Positions 2,859 through 27,450 of a stretch of DNA of 64,000 nt are shown one piece after another. The position numbers and the translations under genes were made by a program. Source of the DNA: an uncultured Candidatus Binatia bacterium (GTDB lineage: Bacteria > Desulfobacterota > Binatia > Bin18); contig OY282457.1 of the NCBI GenBank assembly GCA_958296235.1, positions 4,273,338-4,337,337 on the forward strand, read 5' to 3'. How positions within the stretch are numbered: position 1 is the stretch's first letter; each line of letters begins with the position of its first letter. Below the pieces are notes generated by a model. That model did not search any database and had not been told where the DNA came from. It saw only the letters and a program-made list of their open reading frames with translations.

Positions 2859-2878
2859 ATTGTCACGTAGGTGACATT
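2859..2878. promoter_or_regulatory. TGTCAC-N4-GTGACA operator upstream of the phasin
   Basis: ATTGTCACGTAGGTGACATT contains perfect 6-base arms (TGTCAC/GTGACA) around four bases. The geometry is that of a Crp/Fnr-family dimer site. It lies directly upstream of the phasin promoter, and a near-identical site precedes the Crp/Fnr gene at 4181-4200. Confidence 0.65.
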
Positions 2879-2892
2879 TTTTTACCCCAGGT

Positions 2893-2927
2893 GCTTGCAA
2901 AAGTTAGCGATTCTAGTTAGCATTAGA
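2893..2927 (+). promoter_or_regulatory. Promoter/operator of the phasin gene
   Basis: TTGCAA (2895-2900), 17 bases, then TAGCAT (2918-2923). The spacer begins AAGTTAGCG and the block closely matches the XRE promoter at 2442-2473 over about 30 bases. AGTTAGC occurs twice inside it, so a regulator site is likely superimposed on the promoter. Confidence 0.6.
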
Positions 2928-2985
2928 CCAGCTAGAAATGAGCCGACAGCGTCGGTAATCTCACAACCAAACAGGGAGGTTTCTC

Positions 2986-3324
2986 ATGACCGATAACGCA
3001 TGGAATTGCAGCGCTTTCAACAAGATGTTCGACGCCAGCGACAATCCGTTTGTCAAGATGATGAGCGGGATGAATATGCCGTTCAGCGAATCGATGAAGC
3101 AAATGGCCGCGCAGTCGCTTGAGTCCAGCGAAGAATGGGCCAGCCGAGCTTTTGAGATGAACGAAAAGGCGACGGAGTGGGCGAAGGACACGCCGTTTGC
3201 GTCAATTTTTGAAACCCAGCGATCATTCGCCCGTCAGATTTTTGACTCGTCAGCCGCACTGACCCGTCAGATCTGGCAGCTTGAGCCCAAGGCCGAAGGG
3301 GCTGCAACAGAAGCGAGCAACTAA
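2986..3324 (+). CDS. Phasin-like granule-associated protein
   Basis: This is a 112-residue protein without signal peptide or membrane segment. It is almost wholly helical and amphipathic, with the region around EEWASRAFEMNEKATEWAKD and QRSFARQIFDSS resembling phasin family repeats. Phasins coat polyhydroxyalkanoate or other lipid inclusions. GGGAGG lies 8 bases before the ATG. Two regulatory blocks lie upstream (Crp/Fnr-type palindrome and XRE-type promoter), and a hairpin follows. The family assignment rests on composition and context rather than a fixed motif. No PHA synthase is present in the window. Confidence 0.65.
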   Translation: MTDNAWNCSAFNKMFDASDNPFVKMMSGMNMPFSESMKQMAAQSLESSEEWASRAFEMNEKATEWAKDTPFASIFETQRSFARQIFDSSAALTRQIWQLEPKAEGAATEASN

Positions 3325-3342
3325 GGCGGTTCGCTCTCCTGC

Positions 3343-3377
3343 GCGGAGGATATCTCCATCTCTGTGATATCCTCTGC
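3343..3377. terminator. Bidirectional hairpin between convergent genes
   Basis: GAGGATATC (3346-3354) pairs with GATATCCTC (3366-3374), extended by GC pairs on the outside. It lies between the convergent phasin and Crp/Fnr genes. There is no clean T tract on either side. Confidence 0.5.
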
Positions 3378-3384
3378 CTTTCCT

Positions 3385-4098
3385 TCACTTTTCGTCCAAC
3401 AAGAGGCCGGCGACTTCTCGCAGACGGTCTGGCTGGACGATGAGCTTGCGCCCATCTCGGAGCAATACCTGCTGCCGTGCCAGCTCCTGCATATGCTCCG
3501 TCACTTTCTGGCGGGACGCCCCCACCAGGTCGGCGAGATCCTCATGGGTAAGCTGTAAGATCAGCATGGTCCCCCGGGCATCCTGAATCCCGAATTTTTG
3601 CGCCAATTCGAGCAGAGCCAAGGCCAGCTTTTGTCTCAGGCTGGAGCCCTGAAAATGCGTATAACGGTAGAGAAGGGCAAACCAACGGCCTACGGTTCCT
3701 TCCATCAGAGCGCTGAAATCCGTAAATGGAACGTTGAGCAGTGTCGTCACAAAAATATCTGGACGGACTGAACTGACCCAGCAGTCGCTAAACGCTTCTG
3801 AGCGAAAGGCGCGGTACATACCTGGCATCAGGGAGGTAATGCCAAATAACTCCCCAGGCGAGATGAGACTGACGAGAACGCGCTCTTCATCTGGACTGCG
3901 CAAGGAGAGTTTGACAACGCCAGAAATCAGGAAATACACCGAGTCTGAGGGCACTCCCTCGTTGAACAGGACGGTGCGTTTTTCGATGTGGTGTAGAGCC
4001 ATCTGACTCAGGAGCCGCTCCACTTGCTGATCTGAGGCCCAGGGAAATGCTTTCAGCCGCCGGATGGTTGTCACATTAAGGACCGGTATACGTGCCAT
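3385..4098 (-). CDS. Crp/Fnr-family transcriptional regulator
   Basis: This is a 237-residue protein with an N-terminal cyclic-nucleotide-binding-type beta-barrel (residues about 20-130, including FNEGVPSDSVYFLISGVVKL and SPGELFG). A long dimerisation helix and a C-terminal winged helix follow, with LTHEDLADLVGASRQKVTEHMQ split between positioning and recognition helices. No cysteine cluster for an iron-sulphur centre is seen, so it is not a classical oxygen-sensing Fnr. The start is ATG 4098; the open frame to 4251 would run over a perfect palindrome at 4181-4200 that is probably its own operator. The same core recurs four more times in this cluster. Confidence 0.85.
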   Translation of the reverse strand: MARIPVLNVTTIRRLKAFPWASDQQVERLLSQMALHHIEKRTVLFNEGVPSDSVYFLISGVVKLSLRSPDEERVLVSLISPGELFGITSLMPGMYRAFRSEAFSDCWVSSVRPDIFVTTLLNVPFTDFSALMEGTVGRWFALLYRYTHFQGSSLRQKLALALLELAQKFGIQDARGTMLILQLTHEDLADLVGASRQKVTEHMQELARQQVLLRDGRKLIVQPDRLREVAGLLLDEK

Positions 4099-4180
4099 AC
4101 GCGCTCTATCACAGCTTAGGCATAAGATGGCTTGATGGTTCACTACCCGGAGGGATACTATTTTTATCTGCTCTCCCCTT

Positions 4181-4200
4181 ATTGTCACCCAAGTGACAAT
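4181..4200. promoter_or_regulatory. Perfect palindromic operator upstream of the Crp/Fnr gene
   Basis: ATTGTCACCCAAGTGACAAT is a perfect inverted repeat with 8-base arms and a 4-base centre. It lies between the divergent Crp/Fnr gene (83 bases upstream of its ATG) and the lipoprotein gene, so it may control both. Confidence 0.75.
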
Positions 4201-4352
4201 AAAGCAAGTCGCCCTTCTGCGTACTCCACACGCCGCAGAGCAGAAAGGCATCCTGCCATCCGTAGACCCAAGCGTCTTTTCATTGTAGTATGCTACCCTA
4301 TAAAAAACACAGCGGGACGCTGAGCCTGCTATTCTGCGATGGAGGAGGGCGG

Positions 4353-4790
4353 ATGCGAAAAGTATACGCGTATCAGAAGCTATTTTCTTGCTTGCTCATG
4401 GCCAGTTGTCTTTTCCTCTGGGCATGTGGCGAACGGCCCATGGGACAGAAAGAAGAACTGGCGATTCAGATCATCAAAGGGTATGCGACTGAAGATGGGT
4501 TCAGTATTGTCTCCAATATAGAGAAACGGCGGGATATCGCCGGTCGGGCCGGGAACCCGTGGACTATGGGACCGTGGGAGGCTGGCTTACTCTCTCAGGG
4601 AGACCGGATCAATGACGAACTCAGTCAGTATTTCAATCTCTTCGAGGCTCCGGGAGGCCGGTGGGTTCGCTTCACCTACACAGACAAAGATGGGACCCAC
4701 GAGGCGCTCTGGGAGACGCATATCTATAAGAAGAATGTTGAAGGGAAGAACGACCTGGCAAAAGAGTTCATGACGTCGCCGTCTGAGTAA
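4353..4790 (+). CDS. Small exported lipoprotein of unknown function
   Basis: This is a 145-residue protein beginning with a basic n-region and hydrophobic core (LFSCLLMASCLFLW) ending in the lipobox LWAC (Cys about residue 26), a signal peptidase II site. The mature part is hydrophilic, with a GGRWVRFTYTDKDGTHEALWET strand-rich region; I recognise no family. GGAGG precedes the ATG at 4353. The gene is divergent from the Crp/Fnr regulator and shares its palindrome, so it may belong to the same regulon. Confidence 0.7.
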   Translation: MRKVYAYQKLFSCLLMASCLFLWACGERPMGQKEELAIQIIKGYATEDGFSIVSNIEKRRDIAGRAGNPWTMGPWEAGLLSQGDRINDELSQYFNLFEAPGGRWVRFTYTDKDGTHEALWETHIYKKNVEGKNDLAKEFMTSPSE

Positions 4791-4896
4791 GACGCCTGTC
4801 TCCTCTGACCAGTCGTTTTTTCATATCACAGCGGTAGCTTGGGGAAGGGTTGGGTTTTGCCCTGCCGCGCGTCCCCCTGCCTTCTCTGTTCGCTTT

Positions 4897-5736
4897 TCAG
4901 GTCTGCGCATCGCCTTGTGAAGACAAGGCAACGGTCAGATGGGGCTCCCGTTCTTGTTCTTGTAAGCGAGAGAGCACGTCTGCCAGAATACGGTAGACCT
5001 GCGTGTTCACAATCAGACCAATATGGCGTCCGGTGACTTCCCGGTTTTCGCGTTCAGGGTCAATACTCGCGTTCCACTCCACGACTTCGTCCTGTTTGGA
5101 GAAGACCGAGGTAAAGCCGACCTCTTCGGGCATGGATGAAATAACGCTGCGATTGAAGTGGCAGTTGCAGTGGAGCGTCCCGCACTCAGACGGAAGCTCT
5201 CCGCGCCAGCGCCGAAAGGGTTGCAGCACGCGTGAGGCAAACAGAACCAGCGGGCTCACATTATTCGTGCGTTGAATGGGCGAACCCATAGTGACGACGT
5301 GACGGACCTGGTCGGGGAAATTTGTCCCCAGAAAACGAGCGAGCATACCGCCGAGACTATGGCCAAAAACAATCAGCGGATAGCCTGTCTCCCGAATGAT
5401 TTGGTTGAGGCGCCAGCGGAGCAAATGGCCGGTTCGATTCGGACAATCGATATTCCAGTCCAGCCCGGAGAAATACGGATTATAACCCATGCGGCGCAGC
5501 CAACCAGCTAATACTTGTAAGGTCCAGTCGCCAGCCAGAAAGCCAGGGATCAGCAGAACGGGCTCTCCTGACGCCCGCGGGACCGGTGGACGGCGGTAGA
5601 TGTCGTCTCGGAGCAGGGCGCACAGTTGGCGGTATGAGTCTGGATAGGCCGCGGTTAATTGCCAGAAAAGCGTACTAAAACGCTCGGTGTCTTCCCGTTC
5701 AGCGTATGCGTCAGAAAGAAGATTAGCCGGTGCCAT
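4897..5736 (-). CDS. Alpha/beta-hydrolase, lipase/esterase-like
   Basis: This is a 279-residue serine hydrolase. The fold is marked by VLLIPGFLAGDW (oxyanion strand), the nucleophile elbow VFGHSLGGM, a candidate acid in SKQDEVVEW and a candidate histidine in GRHIGLIVN. This arrangement is typical of triacylglycerol lipases and PGAP1-like esterases. The start is set at ATG 5736 (GGGAGAG before it), because the longer frame to 5877 runs through a palindromic regulatory block at 5775-5803. It has no signal peptide from this start, so it probably acts in the cytoplasm, perhaps on stored lipid or polyester (inference from neighbours). Confidence 0.8.
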   Translation of the reverse strand: MAPANLLSDAYAEREDTERFSTLFWQLTAAYPDSYRQLCALLRDDIYRRPPVPRASGEPVLLIPGFLAGDWTLQVLAGWLRRMGYNPYFSGLDWNIDCPNRTGHLLRWRLNQIIRETGYPLIVFGHSLGGMLARFLGTNFPDQVRHVVTMGSPIQRTNNVSPLVLFASRVLQPFRRWRGELPSECGTLHCNCHFNRSVISSMPEEVGFTSVFSKQDEVVEWNASIDPERENREVTGRHIGLIVNTQVYRILADVLSRLQEQEREPHLTVALSSQGDAQT

Positions 5737-5774
5737 GCTGTCCGCTCTCCCTCGGAGCTGTCGTCTGCAATTCT

Positions 5775-5803
5775 GCTTGCAATAAGTGATAACTTTTGCA
5801 AGC
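5775..5803. promoter_or_regulatory. Palindromic element related to the XRE-type operator
   Basis: GCTTGCAA at 5775-5782 and TTGCAAGC at 5796-5803 form an inverted repeat. On the minus strand the block reads GCTTGCAAAAGTTA, identical to the first 14 bases of the phasin promoter/operator. It sits about 40 bases upstream of the hydrolase start. Confidence 0.5.
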
Positions 5804-5864
5804 GTAGCAAAAAGCTCGGGAGAAAGAAACCGGATGGTCCTCACCCCGGATACTGTTGATGCGA

Positions 5865-5914
5865 TTGGCTCTTGCACGGATATCTGCTAGCATCGCCCGC
5901 TCACTCTCGTGAGC
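5865..5914 (+). promoter_or_regulatory. Promoter and TCAC-N4-GTGA palindrome before the GNAT gene
   Basis: TTGGCT (5865-5870), 17 bases, then TAGCAT (5888-5893), the same -10 as the XRE and phasin promoters. Just downstream GCTCACTCTCGTGAGC (5899-5914) is a perfect palindrome with the TCAC-N4-GTGA core seen at the Crp/Fnr-type sites. Its position after the -10 would suit repression. Confidence 0.45.
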
Positions 5915-5952
5915 GCTCACGGCGCGATTTATGTGGCTTGAAGGGGGAGTCT

Positions 5953-6540
5953 ATGGCTGAAGCGCGGATGCACATCGAACGTCCTTATCCTCATACGATT
6001 ACTCTCCGTGACGGGTCAAGCGTGACGTTACGCTTAATGACCTCCTTTGATGCGGACCGCATTGTGAGTTTTGCGCATAGCTTACCCGCAGACGATCTCC
6101 TCCATTTGAGAATAGACATCACGGACCCTGAAGTCGTGAAGCAATGGGTGCGTAATCTTGAGGCCCGTAAGACCGTGACTATCATTGCTGAAAACGGGGA
6201 GGAGATGGCTGGCTATGCCATTCTGCACCATAATATGGTGACGTGGCAGCGTCATCTTGGAGAAATTCGTCTCTTGCTCACCCCGGAGTATCGCTCTCAG
6301 GGATTAGGTCGAACGCTGGCAGAGGAAATTATTGCCATTGCGCAGGATTTAGAGTTGAGCAAAGTGGTCGCTCAGATGATGCCGGACCAACCAGGGGCGC
6401 GTGCGCTCTTCCTCCGTCTCGGCTTCCAAACTGAGGCGCTCCTGCCGGATTTCGTCATTGACCGTTCTGGACAGACGCGGGATCTGATTATCATGGCCTA
6501 CGATATGACCGGCCTGTCCGGTCATGTGCATTCCGCCTAG
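5953..6540 (+). CDS. GNAT-family N-acetyltransferase
   Basis: This 195-residue protein has a GNAT fold. The acetyl-CoA pyrophosphate loop is RSQGLGRTLAEE (about residues 116-127), preceded by the strand HLGEIRLLLTPEY and followed by ARALFLRLGFQTEALL, the usual end of the domain. The substrate cannot be told from sequence. The start at 5953 has AGGGGGAG before it. It is divergent from the lipase-like hydrolase and runs towards the WS/DGAT-like gene on the other strand. Confidence 0.85.
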   Translation: MAEARMHIERPYPHTITLRDGSSVTLRLMTSFDADRIVSFAHSLPADDLLHLRIDITDPEVVKQWVRNLEARKTVTIIAENGEEMAGYAILHHNMVTWQRHLGEIRLLLTPEYRSQGLGRTLAEEIIAIAQDLELSKVVAQMMPDQPGARALFLRLGFQTEALLPDFVIDRSGQTRDLIIMAYDMTGLSGHVHSA

Positions 6541-6565
6541 GAGCCATTGAGCGGAGAGAGACTGC

Positions 6566-8035
6566 CTAGGCTGCACTCGTGCGGGTATCGGTCGGGCGTG
6601 CATCGGCACGAGCCGAGCGCTTTGAAAACCGCTCCGCCGCTTCCCGCAATTCGAGGAACGACGCCTTCAGACAATCGGCATACTCCCAGCCGTCCGGTAT
6701 GAGTTGCGGGTCAAGCGTGACGCCTATCGAGAGCTTCTTATTATAGCTGGCCACCGCATGGAACAGTCCCACTCGTGCCGCTAACGGGCCCATAGGAAAG
6801 AACGCCTGGCGTTTATGCCCAGCCAGGTACAGCGGTACCTGCGGACCAGGAATATTCATGACCACCGTATTCGCCAGCGCACTCATTGAAGGCGCTTGGC
6901 CGGCGAGCGCTTGCCAAGCTGGCGGGATACATATCGCCAGGGATTGCAGGGTATGGAAGACGCCAGCCTGATCCTGCTCGTACAGTTCCTCAACCGTCGC
7001 TTTTTGTGCGGACAGCCGTAAAATCGGGTCGGTGATTCCCACATACAATGGGATTAACATCGTCGCCGTCCGGTCCGTAGGTCGGCGTCCGCGTCTGCGG
7101 CGGGGCTCGTGTCGTTTGAGGTTGACGGGAGAAGCAACACGGAGCTCCAGACCGTCTGTCTTGTGTCCCTTGGCCCGTAAATAGCGCCCAATGCCCCCAG
7201 CAATAATTGCCAGCACAACATCGTTTACGGTTCCTCTCAGAACCGAACGAATGAAGCGCGCTTCAGCAAAAGAAAATTCGAGCCACGTCAACTGTCGCTG
7301 GCCTGACAGCGCGGCATTAAATGGGGTGCGCGGCACAGGTTGCATGAGGGTTGGCATAACACTCATCAGCGCGTTGCTTAACCGCGCTGGCCGCGCGCCG
7401 TGGAACGGAGAGCGCAAGACTTGGAAACTCTGATCGGCCCACCACTCGACAACCTCAGTCATGCGGTCTCGAACCGCTTCCTGCATAAGCGTCACAGCAT
7501 CGGGAATGGCTTCAGGCTCCCACAAAGCGCGCGGTGGTGAGCTGTGTCCACTCTCGGGTTTCAGGTCATGCAGGACAAGCATCAGATCAATGCCCGAGAC
7601 GCCTTCCAGCATCGCTTGGTGAACGCGAGCCAGGACCATGGTGTCGCCGTCCGGCCGTCCGTGGAGAAGCGTCAGTTTCCATAAGGGCCGGTTTCGGTCC
7701 AATGGAGCGCTAAACAGTTGACTGCATACCTGAGAAATCACCCGATCATCGGCAGGCGGAGGGAGGGTGACTTCGTCTACATGATAGTCAAGATCGAAAT
7801 CCGGATCGTCCTCCCAGGTCGGATGGGCAATGTTCAGAGGGGCGAAAACAGCCTTCTGACGATACTGGGGCAGGCGGTCGAAACGACTTCCAATTAATGA
7901 ACAGAGTTCATCTTTTGAAAGAGGACCGGCATACAGACTACAGCCCCCAATATGCATGGGAGCGTGTGGTTTCTCTCTGTAGAGAAATGCTGCCTCAGTC
8001 TGAGTGAGCCGTCTATGTGTCCTGTCTTGAGCCAT
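6566..8035 (-). CDS. WS/DGAT-family acyltransferase with degenerate active-site motif
   Basis: This 489-residue protein matches the wax ester synthase/diacylglycerol acyltransferase family along its length: APMHIGGCSLY near the N-terminus, NRPLWKLTLL, TVNDVVLAIIAGGIGRYL (the conserved ND motif), and NIPGPQVPLYLAGHK with SYNKKLSIGVTLD at the C-terminus. The catalytic HHxxxDG motif, expected near residue 140, reads VHQAMLEG. The second histidine is therefore Gln and the aspartate is Glu. The codons are CAC CAA GCG ATG CTG GAA GGC, so this is not a frame error. Either activity is altered or lost, or the protein has another acyl-transfer role. It lies just after the phasin-like gene. Confidence 0.85.
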   Translation of the reverse strand: MAQDRTHRRLTQTEAAFLYREKPHAPMHIGGCSLYAGPLSKDELCSLIGSRFDRLPQYRQKAVFAPLNIAHPTWEDDPDFDLDYHVDEVTLPPPADDRVISQVCSQLFSAPLDRNRPLWKLTLLHGRPDGDTMVLARVHQAMLEGVSGIDLMLVLHDLKPESGHSSPPRALWEPEAIPDAVTLMQEAVRDRMTEVVEWWADQSFQVLRSPFHGARPARLSNALMSVMPTLMQPVPRTPFNAALSGQRQLTWLEFSFAEARFIRSVLRGTVNDVVLAIIAGGIGRYLRAKGHKTDGLELRVASPVNLKRHEPRRRRGRRPTDRTATMLIPLYVGITDPILRLSAQKATVEELYEQDQAGVFHTLQSLAICIPPAWQALAGQAPSMSALANTVVMNIPGPQVPLYLAGHKRQAFFPMGPLAARVGLFHAVASYNKKLSIGVTLDPQLIPDGWEYADCLKASFLELREAAERFSKRSARADARPTDTRTSAA

Positions 8036-8063
8036 ATCTGACTTGTTAGAAGATATGCGGGTA

Positions 8064-8090
8064 GAAAAAAAGAGGGACCGCGGTCCCTCT
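8064..8090 (-). terminator. Intrinsic terminator after the phasin-like gene
   Basis: On the minus strand a perfect stem of AGAGGGACCG with its complement is followed at once by seven T. It ends the transcript of the 8124-8579 gene, so the WS/DGAT-like gene immediately beyond must rely on readthrough or a very short promoter region. Confidence 0.8.
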
Positions 8091-8123
8091 GCTGTACTAT
8101 TCCGGTGAGTGTAGGAAGCCGCC

Positions 8124-8579
8124 CTAGGCTGCGGCGCGTTTGAGCGGAGTTGTCGCGCGCTCGACCTGTGGAGATGCCGCTTTGCGCTCCGTAGTCCCCC
8201 GGAGAGCAGTCACTTCTTCCCTGAGTGCGCGAATTTCGGCTTGGAGTGCCCGAGTCTCGTTCGCTGACGGTAGCCCCGCCGCTTGGGTCAACCCAGTCAG
8301 AACGGTCCTGGTCAGGGCATTACTGACCTGCTGCCAGCGCAAAAACCCGTCCAGTGTACGCGCGGTCGCCTCTGCAAACTGTGGGGTGCGATACAAGTTA
8401 TCGATGCTCTGGGAGGTCAGCCGGACCATAGCATCATAGCCACCCCAGGCGCTGGTCGTTGTTTCATCATCTGCCAGGCCCAAACCCTGTCGTATGCCAG
8501 CCACAGGCAAGTCGAAGAATAGAGCCTTATATACTTTTATGGCATCCGTCATCATATGCGCGACATTATTCTCTGCCAT
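8124..8579 (-). CDS. Phasin-like protein with C-terminal leucine-zipper coiled coil
   Basis: This protein of about 151 residues has a helical body and a C-terminal heptad region (ALQAEIRALREEVTALRG), followed by a basic Ala-rich tail ending KRAAA. That layout resembles PhaF/PhaM/PhaE-type granule-associated proteins, in which the coiled coil oligomerises and the basic tail can contact DNA. The start is the ATG at 8579, 9 bases after AAGGAG; 8585 is an alternative. Two Crp/Fnr-type palindromes lie upstream and a strong terminator follows. The granule role is inferred from architecture and neighbours. Confidence 0.65.
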   Translation of the reverse strand: MAENNVAHMMTDAIKVYKALFFDLPVAGIRQGLGLADDETTTSAWGGYDAMVRLTSQSIDNLYRTPQFAEATARTLDGFLRWQQVSNALTRTVLTGLTQAAGLPSANETRALQAEIRALREEVTALRGTTERKAASPQVERATTPLKRAAA

Positions 8580-8658
8580 TGCCATTCTCTCCTTCATGTG
8601 TTTCGTGTGAACCTCTTCCACTCTAGGATGATTTCAGGACCCAACCAAGCAAGTCATC

Positions 8659-8672
8659 GTCACCTATGTGAC
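8659..8672. promoter_or_regulatory. TCAC-N4-GTGA operator, first of two before the phasin-like gene
   Basis: GTCACCTATGTGAC is a perfect 5-base-arm palindrome around four bases. It lies 80 bases upstream of the phasin-like start and matches the site in front of the Crp/Fnr gene. Confidence 0.6.
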
Positions 8673-8708
8673 CATCGTTTCTGTTTCTTTGAGATAAACC
8701 CTTCTTTT

Positions 8709-8724
8709 TGTCTCCTGGGTGACA
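8709..8724. promoter_or_regulatory. TGTCtC-N4-GTGACA operator, second of two
   Basis: TGTCTCCTGGGTGACA has one mismatch from the perfect TGTCAC-N4-GTGACA arms. It is 50 bases from the first site, about five helical turns, which would place two bound dimers on the same face. Confidence 0.5.
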
Positions 8725-9513: not shown

Positions 9514-9747
9514 ATGAAGCGTTGGACAATCGTGATGGCGTGCGCCTTGGCCATAGGTCTCGTGAGCGCTCCTGTCGGTGTGTATGCGGACCACCACGGG
9601 ACAGGAGGAACTTCTAGCGACAGCAGCGGTGGCGGCGATGGCGGTGGCGATGGCGGCGGCGACGGTGGCGGCGATGGCGGCGGCGATGGCAACGGTGGTG
9701 GTGCCTGTGGAGGCGATGGGATGGGTAAGAGTGAGGGCTCACACTAA
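9514..9747 (+). CDS. Small exported Gly-Asp repeat protein
   Basis: This 77-residue protein has a clear signal peptide (MKRWTIVMACALAIGLVSA, likely cut after YA near residue 26). The mature part of about 50 residues is His/Ser/Gly rich, with five consecutive GGGD units and one free Cys. The acidic glycine repeats might bind calcium or other cations, but no RTX nonapeptide consensus is present. GAAGGGAGG precedes the ATG and a strong terminator follows, so it is a real short transcription unit. I recognise no family. Confidence 0.6.
   Translation: MKRWTIVMACALAIGLVSAPVGVYADHHGTGGTSSDSSGGGDGGGDGGGDGGGDGGGDGNGGGACGGDGMGKSEGSH
9625..9705 (+). repeat. 12-base repeat encoding GGGD units
   Basis: Tandem copies of a GGCGGCGATGGC-like unit, mostly 12 bases with third-position variation, lie within the exported protein gene. 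Unit number could vary by slippage. Confidence 0.7.
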
Positions 9748-27225: not shown

Positions 27226-27450
27226 ATGAGAAAGCGGCTAAAGACGATGGAAACAACAAAACTCGACCGCTCTGTCACGCGCCTGACACGCCTGGAAGCC
27301 GCGGATGACGGGTATGTCAAAGGCGACCCGGCAACCCGAATTTCCCTGGTTTGGCCGATTACTCGCGATACGTGGGCCTTCATGAGGCCGGCTGATGCTC
27401 AACGAAGATTACAAAGAAATATTACAACGCTTGTCAGACGCCGGCGTTGA
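27226..27450 (+). CDS. Small protein preceding a nucleotidyltransferase (candidate antitoxin)
   Basis: This protein of about 74 residues contains RISLVWPITRDTWAFM and ADAQRRLQRNITTLVRR. That pattern is familiar from short genes directly upstream of nucleotidyltransferase-type genes in many bacteria. It overlaps the following gene by 56 bases in another frame, which suggests coupling. ATG 27226 is used; ATG 27247 is also possible. The antitoxin role is inference from gene order. Confidence 0.5.
   Translation: MRKRLKTMETTKLDRSVTRLTRLEAADDGYVKGDPATRISLVWPITRDTWAFMRPADAQRRLQRNITTLVRRRR

Follow-up and report, generated by a model that had tools for sequence, protein, structure and literature searches.

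Storage genes and regulator at the locus

The window analyzed here is a stretch of 64,000 nucleotides (C1:4273338-4337337) from a single-contig complete 4.62-Mb Binatia genome (G000). Within its first 9 kb, the gene for a Crp/Fnr-family regulator lies among storage genes:

2986..3324, + strand: phasin gene, Phasin_2-like (Pfam E 2e-4, below gathering score)
3385..4098, − strand: Crp/Fnr-family regulator, 237 aa, recognition helix GASRQKVTEH (Pfam cNMP_binding, HTH_Crp_2)
6566..8035, − strand: wax ester synthase/diacylglycerol acyltransferase (WS/DGAT), downstream of the phasin-like gene (TIGR02946 above cut-off; WS_DGAT_cat)
8124..8585, − strand: phasin-like gene; in other Binatia, the gene immediately 5' of phaC encodes a homologue

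The regulator joins a sensor domain to a Crp-type winged helix-turn-helix (PF00027, E 1e-14; PF13545, E 2.6e-12; both above gathering score), and orthologues were found in the genus, the family and Binataceae. Orthologues with 95-100% identity come from MAGs named Candidatus Binatia or Binatota and from Desulfurellaceae bacterium bin18. One MAG labelled Klebsiella pneumoniae (CAMBFS010000026, L074) also holds the Binatia regulator, so its public name looks wrong. The product of 8124-8585 gave no match in a Pfam search; with six proteins encoded next to phaC it shares 34 to 46% identity (lowest E 2e-39), and in several Binatia genomes outside the genus a stretch of a few kb holds the regulator, the phasin-like gene and phaC. 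Further along the window, positions 9590-9720 encode a small protein that looks secreted and contains a long repeat rich in Gly and Asp (GGGDGG).

A candidate palindromic operator and its predicted genomic targets

An earlier note on this DNA had grouped five palindromes into one Crp/Fnr regulon, and four of them hold as candidate operators of the form TGTCAC-N4-GTGACA:

2861-2876: operator TGTCACGTAGGTGACA, 5' of the phasin gene; exact match, kept in 6 same-genus relatives
4183-4198: operator TGTCACCCAAGTGACA, 5' of the regulator's own gene; exact match, arms reach 4179-4202
8658-8673: proximal operator CGTCACCTATGTGACC, 5' of the phasin-like-WS/DGAT operon; two mismatches, kept in six relatives
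8709-8724: distal operator TGTCTCCTGGGTGACA, 5' of the same operon; one mismatch, kept in six relatives; spaced 51 bp from the proximal site, with which it forms a pair

The fifth (5899-5914, GCTCAC-TCTC-GTGAGC), before the GNAT gene, was rejected as a member because its arms differ, with only TCAC/GTGA in common, and because the palindrome is not kept in six relatives of the same genus. The regulator's own site, previously described as a perfect 20-base palindrome at 4181-4200, has an unpaired central CCAA and arms longer than had been proposed, of 10 bp each (TTATTGTCAC/GTGACAATAA, 4179-4202). An alignment with six same-genus relatives shows operator arms with little or no change and central bases that vary; this is clearest at the regulator's own site, where the centre reads CCAA, TTGG or CTAA between invariant arms. 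The operator in Binataceae is often TGTCGC-N4-GCGACA.

At up to two mismatches, TGTCAC-N4-GTGACA has eight matches in the window against 1.9 expected, a number reached by 0 of 100 shuffles. Genome-wide, with the reversed pattern as the control for background, we observe two exact matches, both inside the window (one at the phasin, one at the regulator; control 0), and 13 matches at one mismatch or fewer (control 3). Counts at up to two mismatches are at background (124 versus 101 for the control), and the weight therefore rests on the sites with at most one mismatch and on their context.

Seven of these 13 sites precede the phasin gene, the Crp/Fnr gene, the phasin-like-WS/DGAT operon, phaE-phaC and phaC, where the reversed control puts the chance expectation among all sites of this stringency at about 3. 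The phasin-like-WS/DGAT operon contributes one of them (8709), its partner at 8658 having two mismatches. Two site pairs outside the window, one 5' of phaE-phaC-GNAT (L019) and one 5' of phaC (L020), extend the predicted regulon to both loci. The genome scan that had been suggested for clustering at PHA or lipid genes was thus positive, adding phaE-phaC and phaC to the phasins and WS/DGAT of the window. Both PhaC proteins carry the active-site box Gly-x-Cys-x-Gly-Gly (GYCFGG in L020, GYCLGG in L019), and their best family is TIGR01836, class III synthases, at scores below its cut-off (E 3e-84 and 2e-100). The GNAT encoded after phaE-phaC (L019:2786-3400) appears to resemble that of the window (5953-6540), and GNATs recur next to storage genes in the genus.

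The other six sites are found at korAB, in the region 5' of an elongation-factor gene, in or at gene starts (three sites) and at 27273. The korAB site, TGTCACCTAGGTTACA at L017:5001-5016 (G000 2595482), lies about 130 bp 5' of these genes for a 2-oxoacid:ferredoxin oxidoreductase and is the same in the same-genus genomes listed; since it is absent before korAB in 15 genomes of other genera, korAB is left as a tentative target. The site 5' of the translation elongation factor gene (L014) is present in several same-genus genomes. Sites in coding genes (L015, L016, L018) were taken as chance or coding conservation, and the one-mismatch site at 27273-27288 in the window, which does not lie at any evident promoter and was not seen in the listed relatives, was taken as chance. 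Among the targets first proposed, the phasin, Crp/Fnr and phasin-like genes are retained and the GNAT and the divergent lipoprotein (4338-4790) are not: the site lies about 100 bp upstream of the likely lipoprotein promoter (TAGACC-N17-TAGTAT, near 4263-4291), at a distance that varies across genera. No regulator orthologue was found in G008, and its phaC copies are without the site; the phaC paralogues L127, L131 and L132 also lack sites, although the regulator is present in their genomes.

Promoter geometry and the direction of control

The product of 3385-4098 is very probably a storage-dedicated Crp/Fnr activator, predicted to act as a dimer on TGTCRC-N4-GYGACA at granule-gene promoters. 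We searched for −35 and −10 elements downstream of the proximal site, leaving gap and spacer free and reading the hexamers from conserved sequence. Two predicted promoters lie in the window:

2895..2923, + strand: predicted phasin promoter TTGCAA-N17-TAGCAT; conserved block in six relatives
8620..8648, − strand: predicted promoter of the phasin-like gene TTGGTT-N17-TAGAGT; geometry like that of the phaC and phaEC promoters

The phasin operator (2861-2876) is centred near −61 of its predicted promoter. Across the promoters read, sites fall into two registers, one with 9 bp between the site and the predicted −35 and a centre at about −51.5 (the window's genus, g2, g6) and one with 18 to 20 bp and a centre at about −61.5 (the window phasin, g4, g7, Binataceae). 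The two differ by 10 bp, or one helical turn, and these predicted positions favour a class I-type activator. For the regulator gene itself, the site lies at a variable distance from the start codon, 38 to about 85 bp.

Alternatively, the same regulator might hold the storage genes repressed from the same sites, with release by a signal such as a granule intermediate. There is precedent in PhaR, a granule-responsive repressor of phasins (PMC9049629), Crp/Fnr proteins are able to repress, and some of the own-gene sites end 38 bp from the start codon, which is consistent with core-promoter overlap. Repressor sites, however, usually overlap the −35/−10 elements, whereas the storage sites keep upstream of the predicted −35 in two registers typical of class I activation, and repression of the storage genes seems unlikely to us.

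A second motif, TTGCAANAGTTAGC, touches the phasin promoter and is assigned to an XRE-type regulator encoded next to the phasin. At one mismatch or fewer it occurs at only three places genome-wide, all in the window (reversed control, 4 to 5 matches), and it is conserved in same-genus relatives:

2444-2457: before the XRE gene (~2480-2848)
2895-2908: at the phasin −35
5788-5801: in the hydrolase/GNAT divergent region

The three places suggest a local XRE regulon that overlaps with the Crp regulon, and the phasin promoter may combine Crp-type activation with local XRE control.

The palindrome co-segregates with the recognition helix

The palindrome TGTCRC-N4-GYGACA, with its two half-sites, is present within 160 bp upstream in 24 of 24 regulator orthologues with an SRQ(K/R) helix. 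At one mismatch or fewer, an upstream palindrome was found in 0 of 16 paralogues with an SRP-type or unmatched helix (one has a two-mismatch site); both sets are homologues from genome contigs and related sequences, and the count is no formal probability. The site thus co-segregates with the SRQ recognition helix, in an association that is complete at this stringency. Such an association fits, because in the Crp/Fnr superfamily these recognition-helix residues contact the half-site. Together with the genome scan, it strongly supports the claim of the earlier note that a Crp/Fnr dimer site defines a storage-gene regulon. In Binataceae (L092-L109) many Crp paralogues have an SRP helix, presumably with another operator, and some genomes hold several copies.

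Binding of the operator by the regulator is a prediction from sequence, and some other protein might recognize the palindromes. We consider this very improbable, given the co-segregation of site and helix, the three divergent layouts in which the site precedes the gene of the regulator itself, and the resemblance of the operator to that of CooA, another Crp/Fnr protein.

As for the signal of the proposed activator, none of the curated NCBIfam Crp/Fnr equivalogs was reached (the highest score was 56 bits, the cut-off being 274). Compared with the cAMP pocket of Mycobacterium tuberculosis CRP, FGEL..PRTSS has become FGIT..YRAFR, with the Glu and the Thr/Ser lost and the Arg kept. An FNR-type [4Fe-4S] Cys cluster is not found in the N-terminal part, the one Cys of the window protein being at position 106. 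The signal is thus probably neither cAMP nor an Fe-S cluster.

Paired sites 51 bp apart

At 13 of 15 representative storage promoters of the phasin/PHA-synthase type across Binatia, sites come in pairs exactly 51 bp apart, with a null expectation near 0: no other spacing was seen more than once, and no pair at 51 bp arose in Markov-shuffled sequences. The remaining two promoters have no recognizable 51-bp pair, and in a wider set the exceptions are spacings of 61 bp at phaEC of the window's genome (G000) and of 50 bp in two relatives. An independent scan for 51-bp pairs covered 35 genomes; among the matches listed, which come from nine genomes, pairs at one mismatch or fewer are found only at phaC, phasin-like and phaEC promoters, and at three mismatches the scan is at background.

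That some sites are terminators or chance repeats instead of operators is scarcely credible: 2861-2876 resembles a weak terminator hairpin, and scores as one, because T7 follows it right after the XRE stop codon, and two-mismatch sites occur at background frequency, but the other members have no T-run, and neither the promoter register nor the 51-bp spacing, absent from shuffled sequences, would be expected of such elements. The site at 2861-2876 may be both operator and weak terminator.

A predicted switch for carbon storage

In the activator model, a regulator dimer would bind TGTCRC-N4-GYGACA 5' of the −35, centred near −51.5 or −61.5, and would activate phasin, phasin-like-WS/DGAT, phaE-phaC and phaC, and in other genera phasin-phaC. 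A second dimer would usually occupy the same face of the DNA exactly 51 bp, or five helical turns, upstream of the first, a helical phasing that may reflect cooperation. The regulator would also bind before its own gene, probably as feedback control, possibly autorepression. More broadly, we lean towards the view that an undescribed Crp/Fnr clade is the master activator of PHA and TAG/wax ester granules throughout Binatia, using paired dimers and responding to a signal that is neither cAMP nor an Fe-S cluster.

Binatota have been reported from marine sponges (PMC9999580), and a literature search on PHA regulation in Binatota gave no paper on the subject. The model would supply an uncultured phylum with a predicted transcription-factor regulon whose operators, targets and promoter geometry are defined, and in which PHA and wax-ester/TAG storage are linked under one predicted switch. 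Given its operator, narrow set of targets and paired architecture, this regulon could be tested directly, either in vitro or in a surrogate host, and the missing cAMP and Fe-S determinants raise the question of which signal prompts carbon storage in these bacteria, many of them sponge symbionts.

Comparison with known regulators

The recognition helix of CooA starts with R-Q, as does that of the Binatia regulator. The earlier note had set the half-site apart from those of CRP and FNR; it does differ from both, and a precedent exists in the CooA operator, TGTCGGCNNGCCGACA (PMC545781), since the Binatia operator is likewise 16 bp long and its outer bases, TGTCR-N6-YGACA, are identical to the published consensus (PMC545781). 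In contrast, the inner arm base is C in Binatia and G in CooA, the sequence similarity of the two proteins is weak (PDB 1ft9, E 9e-4), and the Binatia targets are storage genes whereas the CooA regulon consists of CO dehydrogenase genes; no CO dehydrogenase was found near a site in the seven read loci outside the window.

The best solved relatives are of CRP/GlxR type (CRP of M. tuberculosis and actinobacterial regulators like it, E about 3e-17) and share the two-domain architecture. They differ in the operator (TGTGA-N6-TCACA for CRP against TGTCAC-N4-GTGACA), in the recognition helix (RET in CRP, RQK in Binatia) and, in the alignment, in the cAMP pocket, where I stands in place of E, and A/F in place of the T/S that follows the Arg.

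Control of PHA genes by the Crp/Fnr superfamily is itself known, FNR, Anr and CydR controlling phaC or other PHA genes in Herbaspirillum, Pseudomonas and Azotobacter (reviewed in PMC9049629). Those proteins, however, are global oxygen regulators with TTGAT-type sites, whereas the Binatia protein has no N-terminal Cys cluster, another operator and a narrow predicted storage regulon. Dedicated control of phasin and PHA genes is shared with PhaR/AniA, a PHA-responsive DNA-binding regulator (PMC9049629) whose protein family is not Crp/Fnr. What appears to be new is a dedicated, apparently non-cAMP, non-Fe-S member of Crp/Fnr that has paired operators and takes in PHA as well as WS/DGAT genes. We regard this as a well-supported new regulon, with binding and activation predicted, within a known regulator superfamily.
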